Origin: Candidatus Cloacimonadota bacterium
Lineage (GTDB): Bacteria; Cloacimonadota; Cloacimonadia; Cloacimonadales; TCS61
Length of the DNA stretch: 5,111 bases
Direction: 5' to 3'
NCBI GenBank assembly: GCA_030667725.1
Contig: DAOUVH010000111.1
Coordinates: 1 to 5,111 of the forward strand
The notes below the pieces were generated by a model. It was not told the DNA's origin and made no database searches. It saw only the letters and a list, made by a program, of their open reading frames with translations. Both the position numbers and the translations under genes were made by a program. Shown here piece after piece: positions 1-5,111 of this stretch (position 1 is its first letter; each line of letters opens with the position of its first letter).

Positions 1-148
1 ATGTTTGTCCACTTTCACATTAATTTGAAGGAATATTGAAAGAGTGCTTCGGGGGACACCATTCTTCGCAAAGAGATTATAGAAATAAAGTTTCTTCTTG
101 TATCGGCTCGCCATTCGGAGCTCACGAGCAAAGCAAGTGAGCGAAGAA
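1..148. other. Non-coding left flank
   Basis: No reading frame of useful length exists here on either strand; all six frames are closed by stops. From 57 onward it is made of the inverted repeats described separately. Bases 1-56 show only a weak 6-bp inverted pair (CTTTCA 12-17 with TGAAAG 37-42). No promoter or terminator is convincing. Confidence 0.6.
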
Positions 149-153
149 TGGTG
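57..153. repeat. Inverted repeat ending at the tRNA-Val 3' end
   Basis: Thirteen bases at 57-69 (CACCATTCTTCGC) recur as an exact inverted copy at 141-153. The right copy includes the last acceptor-stem base, discriminator and CCA of tRNA-Val. A 13-bp perfect inverted match within 100 bp is very unlikely by chance. The whole unit is 97 bp, similar in size to the palindromic element at 4193-4292, but its sequence is different. It could be a small REP- or MITE-like element, or a duplicated attachment-like sequence next to the tRNA. No coding sequence lies inside it. Confidence 0.6.
111..151. repeat. Hairpin in the tRNA-Val 3' trailer, including CCA
   Basis: Bases 111-125 and 137-151 form an imperfect 15-bp stem: six outer pairs, a three-base mismatch bulge (117-119 against 143-145), then six inner pairs (GCTCAC/GTGAGC), around an 11-nt loop (126-136). 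The outer arm includes the tRNA CCA. There is no U tract after it on the minus strand, so it does not look like an intrinsic terminator. The right arm can pair alternatively with 57-69, so two exclusive folds are possible in the trailer RNA. Confidence 0.6.
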
Positions 154-225
154 GGTGATACGGGATTCGAACCTGTGACCTCTACGATGTCAACGTAGCA
201 CTCTAACCAACTGAGCTAATCACCC
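149..225 (-). tRNA. tRNA-Val (anticodon GAC)
   Basis: The minus strand folds into a complete cloverleaf. The acceptor stem is GGGTGAT (225-219) with ATCACCC (159-153). The D arm is GCTC/GAGT with loop AGTTGGTTA. The anticodon stem is CTACG/CGTAG around loop TTGACAT, giving anticodon GAC at 191-189, which reads valine GUC/GUU codons. The variable loop is 5 nt (AGGTC) and the T arm is ACAGG-TTCGAAT-CCTGT. The discriminator is A and the CCA is encoded (151-149). It lies 92 bp downstream of the small membrane-protein gene on the same strand. Oddly, its CCA is the outer end of inverted repeats that extend into the 3' trailer. No intrinsic terminator follows it. The isotype call is secure. Confidence 0.97.
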
Positions 226-234
226 ACGAGAGTT

Positions 235-263
235 TAAGAAATTTATTAAAGATTATTCGTCAA
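235..263 (-). promoter_or_regulatory. Candidate tRNA-Val promoter
   Basis: A TTGACG hexamer on the minus strand (263-258) matches the sigma-70 -35 box at five of six positions. A 17-nt AT-rich spacer then leads to TTCTTA (240-235), a poor -10 box. Transcription starting from here would begin within a few bases of the mature tRNA 5' end at 225, after a short CTCTCG discriminator-like stretch. The position and the -35 box are good but the -10 box is weak, so this is tentative. The tRNA could also be read through from upstream genes. Confidence 0.3.
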
Positions 264-317
264 GTTTTGGTGGAATTAATCATGAATTCATACATATAAA
301 TTGTTAACAAGAAAATA

Positions 318-656
318 CTAGAAAATTTTCTTAAATAATTTGATTAATAACGTAATGCTTTTTATAATCAACCATATTGCTAAAATTGAAACGACAAACC
401 ATAATAATGCAATTATCATAACTGGCCATATTGAATTAAAATTCTTTATTAAAAATCCTAAAACAAACATTCCAATAAAGATACTAATTAATTTAAGAGT
501 GTTTAGAAAATCAAACCACTGAGATTCATAATGAATACAGGTTTCTTGTAATTCAGTGATATCCTTTTTAAGTGCGTGTATTTCTTCTTCTGCCTTTCCT
601 AATGCATTTGATAAGTCATTAATTTCCTGAAAGATTTCATCAGAAATATTATCCAT
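318..656 (-). CDS. Small coiled-coil protein with two membrane helices, function unknown
   Basis: This is a 112-aa protein I do not recognise. Residues about 8-40 are charged and heptad-like (I8, I12, L15, L19, I26, L29, I33, L36), suggesting a short helical coiled coil. Two hydrophobic segments follow, about 54-70 and 76-98, with a Lys-rich C-terminus (KLFKKIF), so it is probably an inner-membrane hairpin with both tails in the cytoplasm. The start is placed at ATG 656 because GGAG (666-663) lies 6 nt upstream; a TTG at 668 would add four residues but overlaps that ribosome site. It lies 53 bp downstream of the methyltransferase-HEPN gene and is equally AT-rich, so the two may be cotranscribed and work together. 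That partnership is inference. The reading frame and topology are convincing. Confidence 0.75.
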   Translation of the reverse strand: MDNISDEIFQEINDLSNALGKAEEEIHALKKDITELQETCIHYESQWFDFLNTLKLISIFIGMFVLGFLIKNFNSIWPVMIIALLWFVVSILAIWLIIKSITLLIKLFKKIF

Positions 657-662
657 TGTTTT

Positions 663-666
663 CTCC
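663..666 (-). promoter_or_regulatory. Ribosome binding site deciding the start at 656
   Basis: GGAG on the minus strand with a 6-nt spacer (AAAACA) to ATG 656. It overlaps the alternative TTG start at 668, which favours the shorter, 112-aa product. Confidence 0.7.
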
Positions 667-709
667 AACTAAATAAGCAATAATAAAAAAACTGTTATGT
701 AAACAAATT

Positions 710-1780
710 TTAAGACAATAACTTATTTATATTCGATAAATCTGCAATTAATTGTTGAACATCAGAATTTTTCTCAACATAATTGGGTCTATCTTTTTCC
801 AAAAAATCGAATAATTCATAAATTAATTTTCCACAATCATCAATAAATTCTTTGAATTCATTATAAGTAAAATTTGCTTCTTTAAGAAAATCGGTTACTA
901 ATGATCCTTCATCAATATGGGCTACATCTTTGCATCTATAATTCCAAATTCTTCTACCTTTCTTCATAAATTCATCATAGTTAATACGATTAATGGTTAT
1001 GGTTACTTTGTTTTTTTTCATTTTTTTCAGTAAGTTTGGAAATGAAATTGATCTCTTATCTTTATCAAAAAGTGTTGCTAATTTTGTAATTAATGTTTGA
1101 AAAGATGATTCTTGAACAGCAGAAAAAAACTTAATATATTCATTATAAACAGAAACGACTTGAGGTCTTTTGCTATGATCTCTCACTAAATAATGCCATA
1201 TCACATAACATTCTTGAATCCAATAAATTCTTTTTTCAATACTTTCTAAATAAAAATCTATTAAATTGTTTATTTTTCCCTTCATGCACTTCAAATACAG
1301 TTCCTGATTTATTAACCCAGAATCAAGTACTAGAAATCCACAAGATTCTAATAACTTTTCTAAATACGATAGATCGAGTAGATTCTTACTGCGAAATCGC
1401 TCTTCTTTGTATGAAAACATCTCAACCCAATGCTGGATTGTTTCCCAATCTTTTTTGTTCTTTCTACTATTAAAATATTTCTTAAAACTTATCTCGAAAT
1501 CAGGAATGTTGCTGAGAATTAATATTCCACTTTCTTCTAAGATACGATTCCACTCCAGAAAAGTATTTTTCAAATTTTTCCAATGGATGTGATCAATAAT
1601 ATCTTTCGCTCTGATCTCGGAAACTGACTCATCTTCCAACCAGGATAAATCTTCAACGCTACTTTTATGAAATTTAAAATTTTCGACGGTTTCGTTTGAT
1701 TTAGATTGTTGAGGTTTGTAAATATCCACATTCAGATAATCTTTTAATAAATCTGAACCACAACCAAGATTTAATTTCAT
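710..1780 (-). CDS. SAM-dependent methyltransferase fused to an AbiU2-like HEPN domain
   Basis: This 356-aa protein has two parts. Residues 1 to about 170 resemble class I SAM methyltransferases: motif I LNLGCGS (3-9), an acidic ribose-binding residue in NVDI (17-20), a D-I-I-D-H-I segment (60-65) where EH usually sits, and the strand-loop GILILSNIPDF (85-95). Residues about 180-345 are helical and look like the HEPN/AbiU2 family of abortive-infection proteins: an FF-x3-Q helix (218-223), LATLFDKD (234-241) followed by ISFPNLL (245-251), and RCKDVAH (282-288), which fits the HEPN R-x4-6-H motif. Many HEPN proteins are RNases; the methylated substrate is unknown. ATG 1780 has AGGGG 5 nt upstream, overlapping the stop of the CGGC gene, so translation is probably coupled. 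The gene is much more AT-rich than ruvB, which suggests recent acquisition. The methyltransferase call is firm at fold level. The HEPN assignment is from motif memory, not a search. Confidence 0.78.
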   Translation of the reverse strand: MKLNLGCGSDLLKDYLNVDIYKPQQSKSNETVENFKFHKSSVEDLSWLEDESVSEIRAKDIIDHIHWKNLKNTFLEWNRILEESGILILSNIPDFEISFKKYFNSRKNKKDWETIQHWVEMFSYKEERFRSKNLLDLSYLEKLLESCGFLVLDSGLINQELYLKCMKGKINNLIDFYLESIEKRIYWIQECYVIWHYLVRDHSKRPQVVSVYNEYIKFFSAVQESSFQTLITKLATLFDKDKRSISFPNLLKKMKKNKVTITINRINYDEFMKKGRRIWNYRCKDVAHIDEGSLVTDFLKEANFTYNEFKEFIDDCGKLIYELFDFLEKDRPNYVEKNSDVQQLIADLSNINKLLS

Positions 1781-1785
1781 GCTAT

Positions 1786-1790
1786 CCCCT
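1786..1790 (-). promoter_or_regulatory. Ribosome binding site overlapping the upstream stop codon
   Basis: AGGGG (1790-1786) shares its first bases with the TAG stop (1791-1789) of the CGGC-domain gene and lies 5 nt before ATG 1780. This layout suits reinitiation or translational coupling and supports cotranscription of the fusion gene with the ruvB cluster. Confidence 0.6.
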
Positions 1791-2229
1791 AATCATACTC
1801 CAATCTAAGCTTTTCAACAACTAGAGTTGGTTGAATAATATCCTGCCAGTAATCAGATTCCCAAGTTCCAAGTTTTTCATGCATTAAGAAATATTTTTGC
1901 GGAATTGGATGAGTGCCGAGTACAACTTCTAAACCGTGTTTTGCTTCGATAAAATTAGTAAAATCCTGGATGTAAGGACAGGGCGGATAGCCAACGATAA
2001 GTCCTGTTGCCAGATGGATCTTTGTAACATTGTTTTTCATCATTTCATCAACGGCATATTCAATGTTCCCACCCGGACATCCATCACATGATGTATAGCC
2101 AACAAGTTCTACATCCATATCTTTGTAACGGGCAAAAGCACCTTCTCTTTTCTGTAAAGATCGAAAGCATTTCCCGCCGGCACAGCGACGATAGCGGTCA
2201 CAAATGATTATACCAATTTTTTCCTGCAT
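1789..2229 (-). CDS. CGGC domain-containing protein, putative metal-binding
   Basis: This 146-aa cytoplasmic protein matches the CGGC family (PF08821 by recall), common in anaerobes and of unknown biochemical role. Cysteines sit in the family pattern: C10, C16 and C21 in IICDRYRRCAGGKC, the paired C48/C51 of TSCDGCPGG, and C84 in GYPPCPY. THPIP (106-110) and a C-terminal KYF segment follow. The cysteine spacing suggests a metal or iron-sulfur site or redox chemistry, which is inference. The length is normal for the family and there is no signal peptide. ATG 2229 comes one base after the ruvB TAA, with AGAGG 6 nt upstream, so it is cotranslated with ruvB. The family call is fairly sure; the function is not. 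Confidence 0.85.
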   Translation of the reverse strand: MQEKIGIIICDRYRRCAGGKCFRSLQKREGAFARYKDMDVELVGYTSCDGCPGGNIEYAVDEMMKNNVTKIHLATGLIVGYPPCPYIQDFTNFIEAKHGLEVVLGTHPIPQKYFLMHEKLGTWESDYWQDIIQPTLVVEKLRLEYD

Positions 2230-2230
2230 G

Positions 2231-3262
2231 TTATTCCTCTACTATGTCAAACACACTCATTTGCGCTTGAGTTGGTTTGATATTAAAATGTTTATAGGTT
2301 TTCATTGTTGCTTTTCTGCCTTGAGATGTTCTATCCAAAAATCCCTGCTGGATAAGATAAGGCTCATAAATTTCTTCCACGGTTCCGGAATCTTCTCCTA
2401 GAGCTACTGCTAGTGTTTTCAATCCAACTGGACCACCATTGTAATTTTCAATTAACAATCTTAAAAGACGTTTATCCATATCATCAAGTCCGGCAAAATC
2501 AACATCCAGCATTTTAAGAGCTTTAATTGCTATTTCTTGTGTGATAATGCCGTCACCTTTTATTTGAGCGTAATCTCGTACGCGGCGGAGAAGACGATTT
2601 GCCACACGTGGGGTTCCACGGCTTCGACGCGCCATCTCTTTTGTTCCGGCATCTTCCAAAGGGATACCCAATAAACCGGCAGAACGTTTTATAATGTGTT
2701 CAATGCTTTTTACATCATAATAATCCAGACGCAAAACCAAACCGAATCTAGATCGCAGGGGAGAGGTTAATAATCCTGCCCGCGTAGTTGCACCGATCAG
2801 TGTGAATGGCTCGATATCAATTGAGAGCGAACGAGCGGCAGGACCACTGTCGATGATGATCTCCATTTCAAAATCTTCAATAGCAGGATACATATATTCT
2901 TCCACTACATGATTCAACCGATGAATTTCATCGATGAAAAAGACATCGTTTCTTTGCAGGTTGGTCAATATCCCTGCCAGATCGGGAGCTTTTTCCAGAA
3001 CCGGACCAGAGCTTACTTTTACTTCCACACCAAGCTCATTTGATATAATATGCGCAAGTGTGGTTTTCCCAAGTCCCGGAGGACCGTAAAACAGAATATG
3101 ATCGAGTGGCTCTTTACGCAGTTTAGCTGCTTGTATGGAAATATCCAATATCTCTTTGATCTTTTCCTGTCCGACAAATTCAGCTAGAGATTTTGGACGC
3201 AAGGTGCGGTCAAAATCTTTTTCTTCCGGTATTTCTAACGGATCGGTTAAGCGTTCTAACAT
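2231..3262 (-). CDS. ruvB: Holliday junction branch migration ATPase RuvB
   Basis: RuvB is the hexameric AAA+ motor that, with RuvA, drives branch migration of Holliday junctions in recombination and repair; RuvC cuts the junction. The 343-aa length is typical. Visible motifs are Walker [10 protein letters not shown] (60-68), Walker B FFIDEIHR (108-115), sensor 1 GATT (157-160), the arginine-finger segment PLRSRFG (168-174, R170), and sensor 2 [13 protein letters not shown] (215-227). The C-terminal winged helix (about 260-330) carries [10 protein letters not shown] and [10 protein letters not shown], the DNA-contacting wing. ATG 3262 directly abuts the TAA of the upstream 65-aa gene and has AGAGG 5 nt before it. 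The CGGC gene follows after one base. ruvA and ruvC are not in this window, unlike the common ruvAB arrangement. No defect is visible. Confidence 0.99.
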
Positions 3263-3460
3263 TTATTCCTCTTTTGTTTCGTTTTGTTTTTGAATGATCA
3301 ATCCAAGAAAATACACAACAATTCCAATACCAAGTATTATGAATGAAGATAAAAAATGCGCTCCATAAGAATATCCGAAAAATCCAATCATAAGTTTAAT
3401 AAAACCAGCAATCAAAGCTAACAAACCGATTAATTTAATATATTCGTATGTTTGCGGCAT
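3263..3460 (-). CDS. Small two-helix membrane protein, function unknown
   Basis: This 65-aa protein has two hydrophobic helices, about residues 8-28 and 38-57, joined by the short GYSYGAHFL turn. The C-terminus is charged (QKQNETKEE). It probably forms a hairpin in the inner membrane. ATG 3460 has a full AAGGAG site (3472-3467) with a 6-nt spacer, which makes it a convincing gene despite its size. Its TAA is followed at once by the ruvB ATG, so it is the first gene of the ruvB cluster and translationally coupled to it. I do not recognise the family. A role linked to RuvB is not implied; small membrane proteins are often incidental operon partners. Confidence 0.8.
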   Translation of the reverse strand: MPQTYEYIKLIGLLALIAGFIKLMIGFFGYSYGAHFLSSFIILGIGIVVYFLGLIIQKQNETKEE

Positions 3461-3546
3461 ATAATTCTCCTTAAATATTCTTTGTAACCTTTAGCTGTAA
3501 AACACATTTTATTGCAAGCGATTTCTTATGTATGGTGGGCAATTGC

Positions 3547-4176
3547 CTACATTTTTATTGCTATCGTTGCCGGACTTTTTCTTCCCACTACCGGACCATC
3601 CATTACTTTGAATCCAGCCGAGGTCATATTTTTTCTGATTTGTTTAGCACAACTATATGTACTCAGCTTTGCTCCATTCTTCATTTTATTGTATATTTTT
3701 TGGAAGATCATTTCACTCCACATTTCAGGTTGTTTCTTTGGGGAAAATGGGTCAAAGAAGACTCTGTCAAATACTCCATCTGGAAGCTCATCAACTTTTT
3801 GTAAAGCGTCTCCCAATAAGATTTGAATTCTATTGTTATTATTGTCGGTAACATCAAGATTTTCTGCAATATTCCTAAAAGGAGCAAATTCGGTTTTTAA
3901 TATTTCAGGGATTTCAACATCCTTCATTGCTTCAATTATTTTTATATCATTTTCTAAACCGATTATTTGTAGATTTGCGTGATCCTTGCAAGCAGCGATA
4001 GAATTATATCCTAATCCAAAACAGAAATCGAGGATATGCATCCCATTTTCTATTCCAAGCGCATTCACATGCTTTTCAAATGCCTCCTCAATTGCACCGG
4101 AAATTGTGTGGTAATGTTCACCTGCAACTTCGCTAAAAATGGTGTAAGAACCATCTTTTGTTTTTACTAATTTCAT
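3547..4176 (-). CDS. mnmD: tRNA 5-aminomethyl-2-thiouridine methyltransferase MnmD-like (DUF752)
   Basis: This 209-aa protein matches the MnmC N-terminal methyltransferase family (Methyltransf_30/DUF752), without the FAD oxidase half of the E. coli fusion. Stand-alone MnmD converts nm5(s2)U34 to mnm5(s2)U34 in tRNA using SAM, downstream of MnmE-MnmG. Signature segments in order are GEHYHTISGAIEEAF (19-33), SAM motif I ILDFCFGLGYNS (48-59), acidic GLEND (73-77), LGDA (121-124), the catalytic-region FFDPFSPKKQPEMW (140-153), LSTYSCA (171-177) and GRKSPAT (198-204). Its length suits a single-domain MnmD. The ribosome site before ATG 4176 is weak (AAAAAG only). The palindromic element ends 16 bp upstream, so promoter or mRNA leader signals may lie inside it. 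Substrate is inferred from the family; some DUF752 proteins have other or unknown targets. Confidence 0.87.
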   Translation of the reverse strand: MKLVKTKDGSYTIFSEVAGEHYHTISGAIEEAFEKHVNALGIENGMHILDFCFGLGYNSIAACKDHANLQIIGLENDIKIIEAMKDVEIPEILKTEFAPFRNIAENLDVTDNNNNRIQILLGDALQKVDELPDGVFDRVFFDPFSPKKQPEMWSEMIFQKIYNKMKNGAKLSTYSCAKQIRKNMTSAGFKVMDGPVVGRKSPATIAIKM

Positions 4177-4192
4177 AATTCTTTTTAATAGT

Positions 4193-4292
4193 TGTCATCC
4201 TGAGTTTGGCTTCAACCAAGTATCGAAGGATAGTAAATGATTAATAATTCTGTTCACTTCGATACCTCACTTCATTCGTACTCAGTGTGACA
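4193..4292. repeat. 100-bp imperfect palindromic element (REP/MITE-like)
   Basis: The ends are inverted copies. TGTCATCCTGAGT (4193-4205) matches the reverse complement of the right end at 11 of 13 positions, and an inner arm GTATCGAAG (4220-4228) is repeated exactly in inverted form as CTTCGATAC (4258-4266). Fourteen unpaired bases separate the two arm segments on each side, and the left set (TTGGCTTCAACCAA) can form its own small hairpin. The centre is AT-rich. It fills nearly the whole gap between the macrodomain stop (4299) and the mnmD start (4176). I recall similar TGTCATCCTGAG...GAAGGAT intergenic repeats in several bacterial phyla. No open reading frame, so it is non-autonomous if mobile. 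It could act as an mRNA hairpin between the two genes. Confidence 0.75.
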
Positions 4293-4298
4293 TTACTA

Positions 4299-5111
4299 CT
4301 AATCTCTTTCCAAAATTTTCTGATAAGTTTGATAAATCTCATCATTAAAACATACGAAAATAACTTTCTTGATCGCGGGATATTCTTTCATATATTTTCG
4401 AACTTCTGTAATAGCAATTCTGGCAGCTCTTTCTATCGGAAATCTGTAAACACCACAACTGATCGCGGAAAATGCAATTGTTTTGATCCCATTATGTCTG
4501 GCGATTTCTAATGAATTCTTATAACAGCTAATTAATAGATCATCCTCTTTTGTTTTTCCACCATGCCAAACAGGACCAACAGCGTGGATTACATATTTTG
4601 CAGGAAGGTTAAAACCTTTTGTGATCTTGGCTTTTCCGGTTGCACAACCTCCCAGTTTTCTGCATTCTCTTAAGAGTTCCTCACCGGCTGCATCATGTAT
4701 GGCTCCGTCCACACCGCCACCACCAAGAAGAGTAGTATTAGCAGCATTTACGATAGCTCCTACTTTAATTTTTGTGATATCACCTTTAATAACTTGCAAA
4801 TGATCCATTATATTATGCTCCATCACCTCAAGTATTTGAATTGTATTCAGCCCTAGTTTTGTAATTTTGTATTTTTGATAAGAACTTCCTGGTTTATTCG
4901 GGAATTTATATGCAATTAACTTGTGCTTTCTAAGCAGGCCTATGGCACGTTTGAAGTTTCCGGATTTTCCTTTTCTGCCAAGTTTTTCAGTTATCTCTTT
5001 GGTGGATACTTCCTGATGTGAACAAGTTTGTAATATCTGATAATGTAACTCTGTAAGATTCATCGGGTCCCAATTTGAACCGTCTGGAGTAATAGGCAAA
5101 TTGATCTGATC
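4299..5111 (-). CDS. Winged-helix plus MacroD-type macrodomain protein (5' end open at window edge)
   Basis: Numbering is from a TTG at 5099. Residues about 14-85 form a winged helix-turn-helix: LTELHYQIL, STKEITEKLGRK, FKRAIGLLRKHKLI, then a wing and YQKYKITKLG. Residues about 98-266 are a complete macrodomain of the YmdB/MacroD type: GDI (106-108), VNAAN (117-121), the glycine loop GGGGVDGAIH (126-135), ATGKAKIT (153-160), IHAVGP (171-176) and SAISCGVYRFP (211-221). N121 and D131 are spaced like the catalytic Asn and Asp of YmdB, so hydrolysis of O-acetyl-ADP-ribose or mono-ADP-ribose is likely. No stop lies between 5099 and the edge and the TTG has no ribosome site, so the protein may be longer; ATG 5063 is another option. 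The wHTH resembles the tail of RecG-like/AlbA_2 ATPases, a weak recollection. A free macrodomain could also start inside the frame at 4808. Confidence 0.88.
   Translation of the reverse strand, partial: DQINLPITPDGSNWDPMNLTELHYQILQTCSHQEVSTKEITEKLGRKGKSGNFKRAIGLLRKHKLIAYKFPNKPGSSYQKYKITKLGLNTIQILEVMEHNIMDHLQVIKGDITKIKVGAIVNAANTTLLGGGGVDGAIHDAAGEELLRECRKLGGCATGKAKITKGFNLPAKYVIHAVGPVWHGGKTKEDDLLISCYKNSLEIARHNGIKTIAFSAISCGVYRFPIERAARIAITEVRKYMKEYPAIKKVIFVCFNDEIYQTYQKILERD
4818..4821 (-). promoter_or_regulatory. Possible internal ribosome binding site before the macrodomain
   Basis: GGAG (4821-4818) stands 9 nt before an in-frame ATG at 4808, and GAGGTG lies just upstream. The ATG falls where free YmdB-like macrodomain proteins begin (MDHLQVIKGDI). 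Translation from here would give a stand-alone macrodomain of about 169 aa in addition to the fusion. The site is plausible but could be a coincidence of a Glu-Val-Met-Glu codon run. Confidence 0.35.

Follow-up and report, generated by a model that had tools for sequence, protein, structure and literature searches.

A methyltransferase joined to an AbiU2-type HEPN domain

The window analyzed here, 5,111 nucleotides (positions 1-5,111) of contig DAOUVH010000111.1 of a Candidatus Cloacimonadota bacterium, carries on its reverse strand an open reading frame of 356 codons (710-1780, ATG start) whose product consists of a methyltransferase domain followed by an AbiU2-type HEPN domain. The gene begins 8 bases downstream of the stop codon of a CGGC-domain gene, and AGGGGA precedes its ATG. 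We regard it as all but certain that this is a genuine fusion between a small class I S-adenosylmethionine (SAM)-dependent methyltransferase and an AbiU2-type HEPN domain, and that it belongs to the accessory rather than the conserved part of the locus.

The methyltransferase domain spans residues 1-169 (1274-1780, reverse strand), as delimited by a Pfam match, by the ends of free-standing relatives (169-173 residues) and by a fold search, which returned the class I Rossmann-type methyltransferase fold over residues 1-172. Methyltransf_11 is matched narrowly above its cut-off (23.2 versus 21.2 bits, residues 5-89; the free relative P0004 scores 30.5 bits). The SAM-binding motif I, LNLGCGS, on which an earlier note on this DNA had based its assignment, lies at residues 3-9 (1754-1774, reverse strand) and is retained across the aligned relatives, confirming that assignment.

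The same note had proposed an AbiU2/HEPN-like C-terminal domain, and a Pfam search bears this out: HEPN_AbiU2 (PF18734) is matched over residues 175-322 (815-1258, reverse strand) with 52.2 bits against a cut-off of 26.8 (E 6.9e-14). The signatures of this half are F218-F219-x3-Q223, LATLFDKD (residues 234-241) and the predicted ribonuclease (RNase) motif R282-C-K-D-V-A-H288 (917-937, reverse strand), which fits the Rx4-6H given as the conserved motif of AbiU2 in the section on this family by Anantharaman et al. (PMC3710099); the domain thus resembles lactococcal AbiU2 and its family in profile score, R-x5-H and the FF/FW and F-D signatures. In a 28-row AbiU2 alignment, R282 and H288 are each retained in 27 rows. 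The residue after the arginine is a cysteine, C283, where AbiU2 proteins usually carry a polar N, D, H or S, a feature that is typical rather than defining; the same cysteine occurs in four relatives described below (P0002, P0009, P0014 and P0027).

The predicted structure of the whole chain is confidently two-domain. Since methyltransferases crowded the results of a fold search with the entire chain, residues 166-356 were modelled alone (predicted local distance difference test score 86.7, predicted template modelling score 0.83), and the fold matches of this model include HepT structures. A PDB profile search with the AbiU2 half gave no HEPN match, its seven rows up to E 1 being designed or helical proteins. 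The top PDB match by sequence, caspase-8 (E 0.026, with the fused protein as query), was taken as chance. As a sign of a foreign origin of the HEPN half, base composition is equivocal: G+C at third codon positions is 53/168 in one half and 30/188 in the other (Fisher p 0.0007), and at four-fold sites 14/41 and 10/43 (p 0.34).

Relatives, rarity and origin of the fusion

A search of 5.8 billion proteins, in which 1,941 candidates were scored, recovered only two fused proteins, the query itself (P0001) and P0002, and a search with the HEPN part recovered the same two. Because only these candidates were scored, and only the 7,999 sequences sharing most words in a subsequent profile search, more fusions may exist. 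P0002, the single homologue found with the same domain order, is also 356 residues long and is 67% identical to the window protein from end to end, without a gap through the junction; identity is 73% in the methyltransferase half and 61-62% in the HEPN half, and both proteins keep both motif sets intact. That only two fused sequences were found would be in keeping with an assembly chimera of two genes, but the same architecture on a separate contig speaks against one, and we consider this explanation scarcely credible.

The profile search, which included 13 AbiU2 relatives, yielded 48 proteins: the two fused ones, seven methyltransferases or fragments, and 39 AbiU2 proteins of 131-270 residues, which lack this methyltransferase. 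Five of the seven (P0003-P0007) are 169-173 residues long, 63-70% identical to residues 1-169 and retain motif I; unlike the fused protein they stop there and have no HEPN domain. Conversely, three free AbiU2 proteins of 189-193 residues (P0009, P0014 and P0027) are 60-66% identical to the HEPN half and have their own distinct N-termini. The free methyltransferases terminate where the HEPN half starts, leaving no visible linker at the junction. Since both halves exist free-standing at 60-70% identity, the C-terminal part is not an ordinary methyltransferase extension, and the free versions provide natural controls for the fused protein.

Genomic sampling gave the same picture. Matches to PF18734 were found in 6 of 124 genomes from the phylum of G001, 8 of 398 from the phylum of G002, 14 of 385 from the class of G482 (one seen before) and 9 of 369 from the class of G449 (three seen before). 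These samples comprise 33 distinct loci from two phyla, other phyla being covered through the protein search; the alignment described above used 13 of these loci (L019 and 19 later loci were left out) and 14 of the 39 AbiU2 proteins. A profile of this methyltransferase, run on six-frame translations of the AbiU2 gene with flanks of up to 1.5 kb, found nothing at any of the 33 loci, and detected the controls L001 and L005. The N-terminal methyltransferase and the cysteine after the arginine set the window protein apart from its AbiU2 family.

Searches of mobile elements returned little. The fused protein had no tblastn match among plasmids and phages, and viral contigs gave no relative for either the whole fused protein or its AbiU2 half. 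For the methyltransferase half, the viral-contig scan (best 80 of 88 loci) gave one close match at 67% identity, L021, the rest being 25-42% identical. This piece (L021:2-295, an IMG/VR contig) corresponds to residues 23-116 at 62-67% identity, is cut by the contig edge, and breaks off ahead of terminase- and portal-like genes, as named by eye; no tRNA was found on L021.

Whether the fusion arose once is not settled. In a methyltransferase tree of eight rows (the L021 fragment excluded), the two fused halves group as sisters (99/96) within the free ones, in favour of a single fusion. Plain identity speaks against it: free P0005 (78%) and P0003 (77%) resemble the P0002 methyltransferase more than fused P0001 does (73%), and in the HEPN half P0002 matches free P0014 at 71% and the window protein at 62%. 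Given this last comparison and a HEPN tree that resolves none of these three proteins, two fusion events, a subsequent split or recombination would also be possible. Free P0014 and fused P0002 do not differ over two stretches of the alignment (19/19 and 14/14), but the C-terminus of P0014 is nearer to the window protein (14/19) than to P0002 (8/19). This mosaic hints that free and fused copies have recombined.

No description of an AbiU2-HEPN/methyltransferase fusion was found in searches of the open-licence literature, in line with the earlier note; we therefore rate the fusion as new in domain architecture, within a known kind of HEPN protein. In Table 1 of PMC3710099, the AbiU2 entry gives Sel1 proteins and restriction-modification (R-M) genes as operon partners, with no methylase fusion, and a passage in the text of that paper says that HEPN domains associated with R-M are not fused to methylases. 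A parallel is the DUF86 entry of the same table, which records occasional HEPN fusions to nucleic acid methylases. Compared by description only, these differ in their HEPN family and in having a nucleic acid methylase where the window protein has a Methyltransf_11-type domain.

A variable interval between ruvB and tRNA-Val

The fused gene lies between ruvB (2231-3262, reverse strand, identified by Pfam and by its relatives) and a tRNA-Val (GAC) gene located with ARAGORN about 2.0 kb after it (149-225, reverse strand). The window RuvB is 93-96% identical to the RuvB of eight Candidatus Cloacimonadota genomes, and we examined the ruvB regions of 33 genomes (13 and then 20) out of 111 with a RuvB match. 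Next to ruvB is the CGGC-domain gene (1789-2229, reverse strand; Pfam CGGC, E 1.5e-29), which is present in the interval of most close relatives and forms the left border of the variable block. DNA homology between the window and one such relative, L136, ends at 1790 and restarts at 275, with 13 bases between these points in L136, so that the fused gene, together with the small gene beside it, makes up an accessory block some 1.5 kb long. Its outer limits are 276-1788, homology resuming between 275 and 299 depending on the relative. Neither the methyltransferase nor the HEPN domain was found in the ruvB-tRNA interval of the five readable genomes among the eight with RuvB identity of at least 93%, the contigs of the remaining three ending 39, 154 and 1122 bases after ruvB.

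In 8 of the 33 genomes a tRNA-Val (GAC) gene is located no more than 4.5 kb after ruvB, on the same strand; the remaining 25 showed none, the contig ending or the gene order being different. The distance between the two genes is about 63 and 73 bases in L145 and L154, 286 in L164, and 514, 517 and 611 in L135, L136 and L137, where the CGGC gene alone is present. It reaches 1225 bases in L139, with a DUF3795-like and a CGGC gene, and 1289 in L134, with the CGGC gene and a gene for a 228-residue membrane protein. The ruvB to tRNA-Val (GAC) interval of Cloacimonadota is thus a small variable slot holding from none to several genes, which marks it as a site of changing cargo.

A more distant metagenome-assembled genome (MAG) of Candidatus Cloacimonadota, represented by L001, shares the macro, mnmC-like, ruvB and methyltransferase genes with the window at 68-77% DNA identity. 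Here ruvB is followed by the methyltransferase in free form, a DUF3795 protein, a 218-residue protein and an SduA-type (Shedu) protein (the last two within 9157-10625; SduA match Pfam E 8.3e-14, PADLOC E 1.4e-21), and the contig ends before any tRNA. The 218-residue protein has an RNYLQH motif, but we did not call it a HEPN protein because its HEPN_Apea match reaches only E 0.16.

The second gene of the block (318-668, reverse strand) encodes a small protein with a coiled coil and a membrane segment, 116 residues long from TTG or 112 from the likelier ATG at 656. It may be a partner of the fused protein. A tblastn search of the ruvB regions from 13 genomes gave no relative of it, and it shows a weak match to the phage hemolysin-type family phrog_1193 (E 8.7e-4). 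On the other side of ruvB, 3547-4176 encodes a stand-alone MnmC2-like methyltransferase of 209 residues (102.8 bits, where the NCBIfam cut-off is 136), which adjoins ruvB in many of the fetched relatives too. Beyond it, 4299-5099 encodes a protein whose macro domain (E 1.3e-47) is preceded by an N-terminal part, perhaps a winged helix, with weak matches to Fic-like_C (E 6e-4) and PADLOC CARF3--CARF_TM (E 1.1e-7).

Possible roles of the two domains

The mode of action of AbiU2 is unsettled. AbiU2-type HEPN domains have been proposed as abortive-infection RNases in the account of this family by Anantharaman et al. (PMC3710099), yet the lactococcal protein is reported, in the description of its expression in E. 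coli, not to inhibit growth (PMC3985639). The natural fusion points to a candidate partner activity, SAM-dependent methylation. Judging from its family and motif, the HEPN half is most likely a metal-independent endoribonuclease acting through R282 and H288, probably as a dimer, and the effector in phage defence or a stress response. The methyltransferase half would bind SAM and most likely forms a second arm that senses, targets or restrains this effector. We are evenly divided on this reading as a whole, that is, a genuine accessory fusion of a HEPN RNase effector with a methyltransferase as its second arm. It is favoured by two domains that both exceed their Pfam cut-offs and keep their motifs despite 33% divergence between the fused proteins, by the absence of the block from all five readable close relatives, and by the presence of a Shedu-type gene with a free methyltransferase after ruvB in L001. 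Three observations weigh against a simple toxin: the harmlessness reported for lactococcal AbiU2, the position of the fused gene 8 bases after the CGGC gene, as if the two were co-expressed, and C283 in place of the usual polar residue.

The two halves might have been joined without cooperating, if neighbouring cargo genes lost the intervening stop codon and the two enzymes act independently, the methyltransferase on a substrate of its own and the HEPN domain like any AbiU2. Each half is known free-standing, the L001 methyltransferase occurs in a MAG without a PF18734 match, the junction has no linker, and none of the 33 AbiU2 loci has this methyltransferase nearby. This is a strong rival, though we think it somewhat unlikely, as the fused state persists in two diverged proteins with both motif sets kept.

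The earlier note had raised a built-in antitoxin, in which the methyltransferase methylates and silences the HEPN domain in cis. The idea draws on HepT/MntA, where, according to the part of PMC7641770 on this pair, the partner enzyme AMPylates the HEPN toxin, and C283, next to the predicted catalytic arginine and special to this clade, could serve as an acceptor. The two systems would be alike in pairing a HEPN RNase with an enzyme able to modify it; HepT/MntA, however, consists of two genes with a nucleotidyltransferase and an RX4HXY motif, whereas the window protein is one chain with a methyltransferase and R-x5-H-I-D, so that the HepT acceptor tyrosine corresponds to Asp290. Among the seven window proteins scanned, no Pfam match to an MNT nucleotidyltransferase was found, and PADLOC gave no AbiU match among five (ruvB and the mnmC-like gene left out; the model may not represent AbiU1, the partner of AbiU2 in Lactococcus). 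Cysteine at position 283 also occurs in free P0009, P0014 and P0027, close AbiU2 relatives with no methyltransferase in the chain, and lactococcal AbiU2 is tolerated in E. coli without an antitoxin, as far as its reported expression there goes (PMC3985639). Either half can occur alone: in the G001 MAG, for one, the free methyltransferase is present and PF18734 is not matched (six other genomes matched), although this MAG may be incomplete. Silencing in cis is possible, but it gained no positive support and we judge it very improbable.

Another possibility is methyl-based control of the RNase. In a one-chain immunity effector, SAM-dependent methylation of the HEPN domain or of the cut RNA would decide whether the AbiU2 RNase is armed, and it could fire when a phage alters the SAM or methylation state; we consider this unlikely. 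It is very unlikely, in our view, that the two halves share a target in the sense that the methyltransferase marks host RNA, e.g. tRNA, to be spared from the HEPN RNase, or RNA to be cut. The single shared chain agrees with this, as do the tRNA and rRNA enzymes METTL6, Trm9 and Bud23 in the methyltransferase fold list, but that list also holds many small-molecule enzymes and cannot discriminate substrates. Some remote relatives of the methyltransferase also speak against it: L005 lies among glycosyltransferase-like genes, as read by eye, and L006 is part of a very long open frame with sugar-transferase-like parts.
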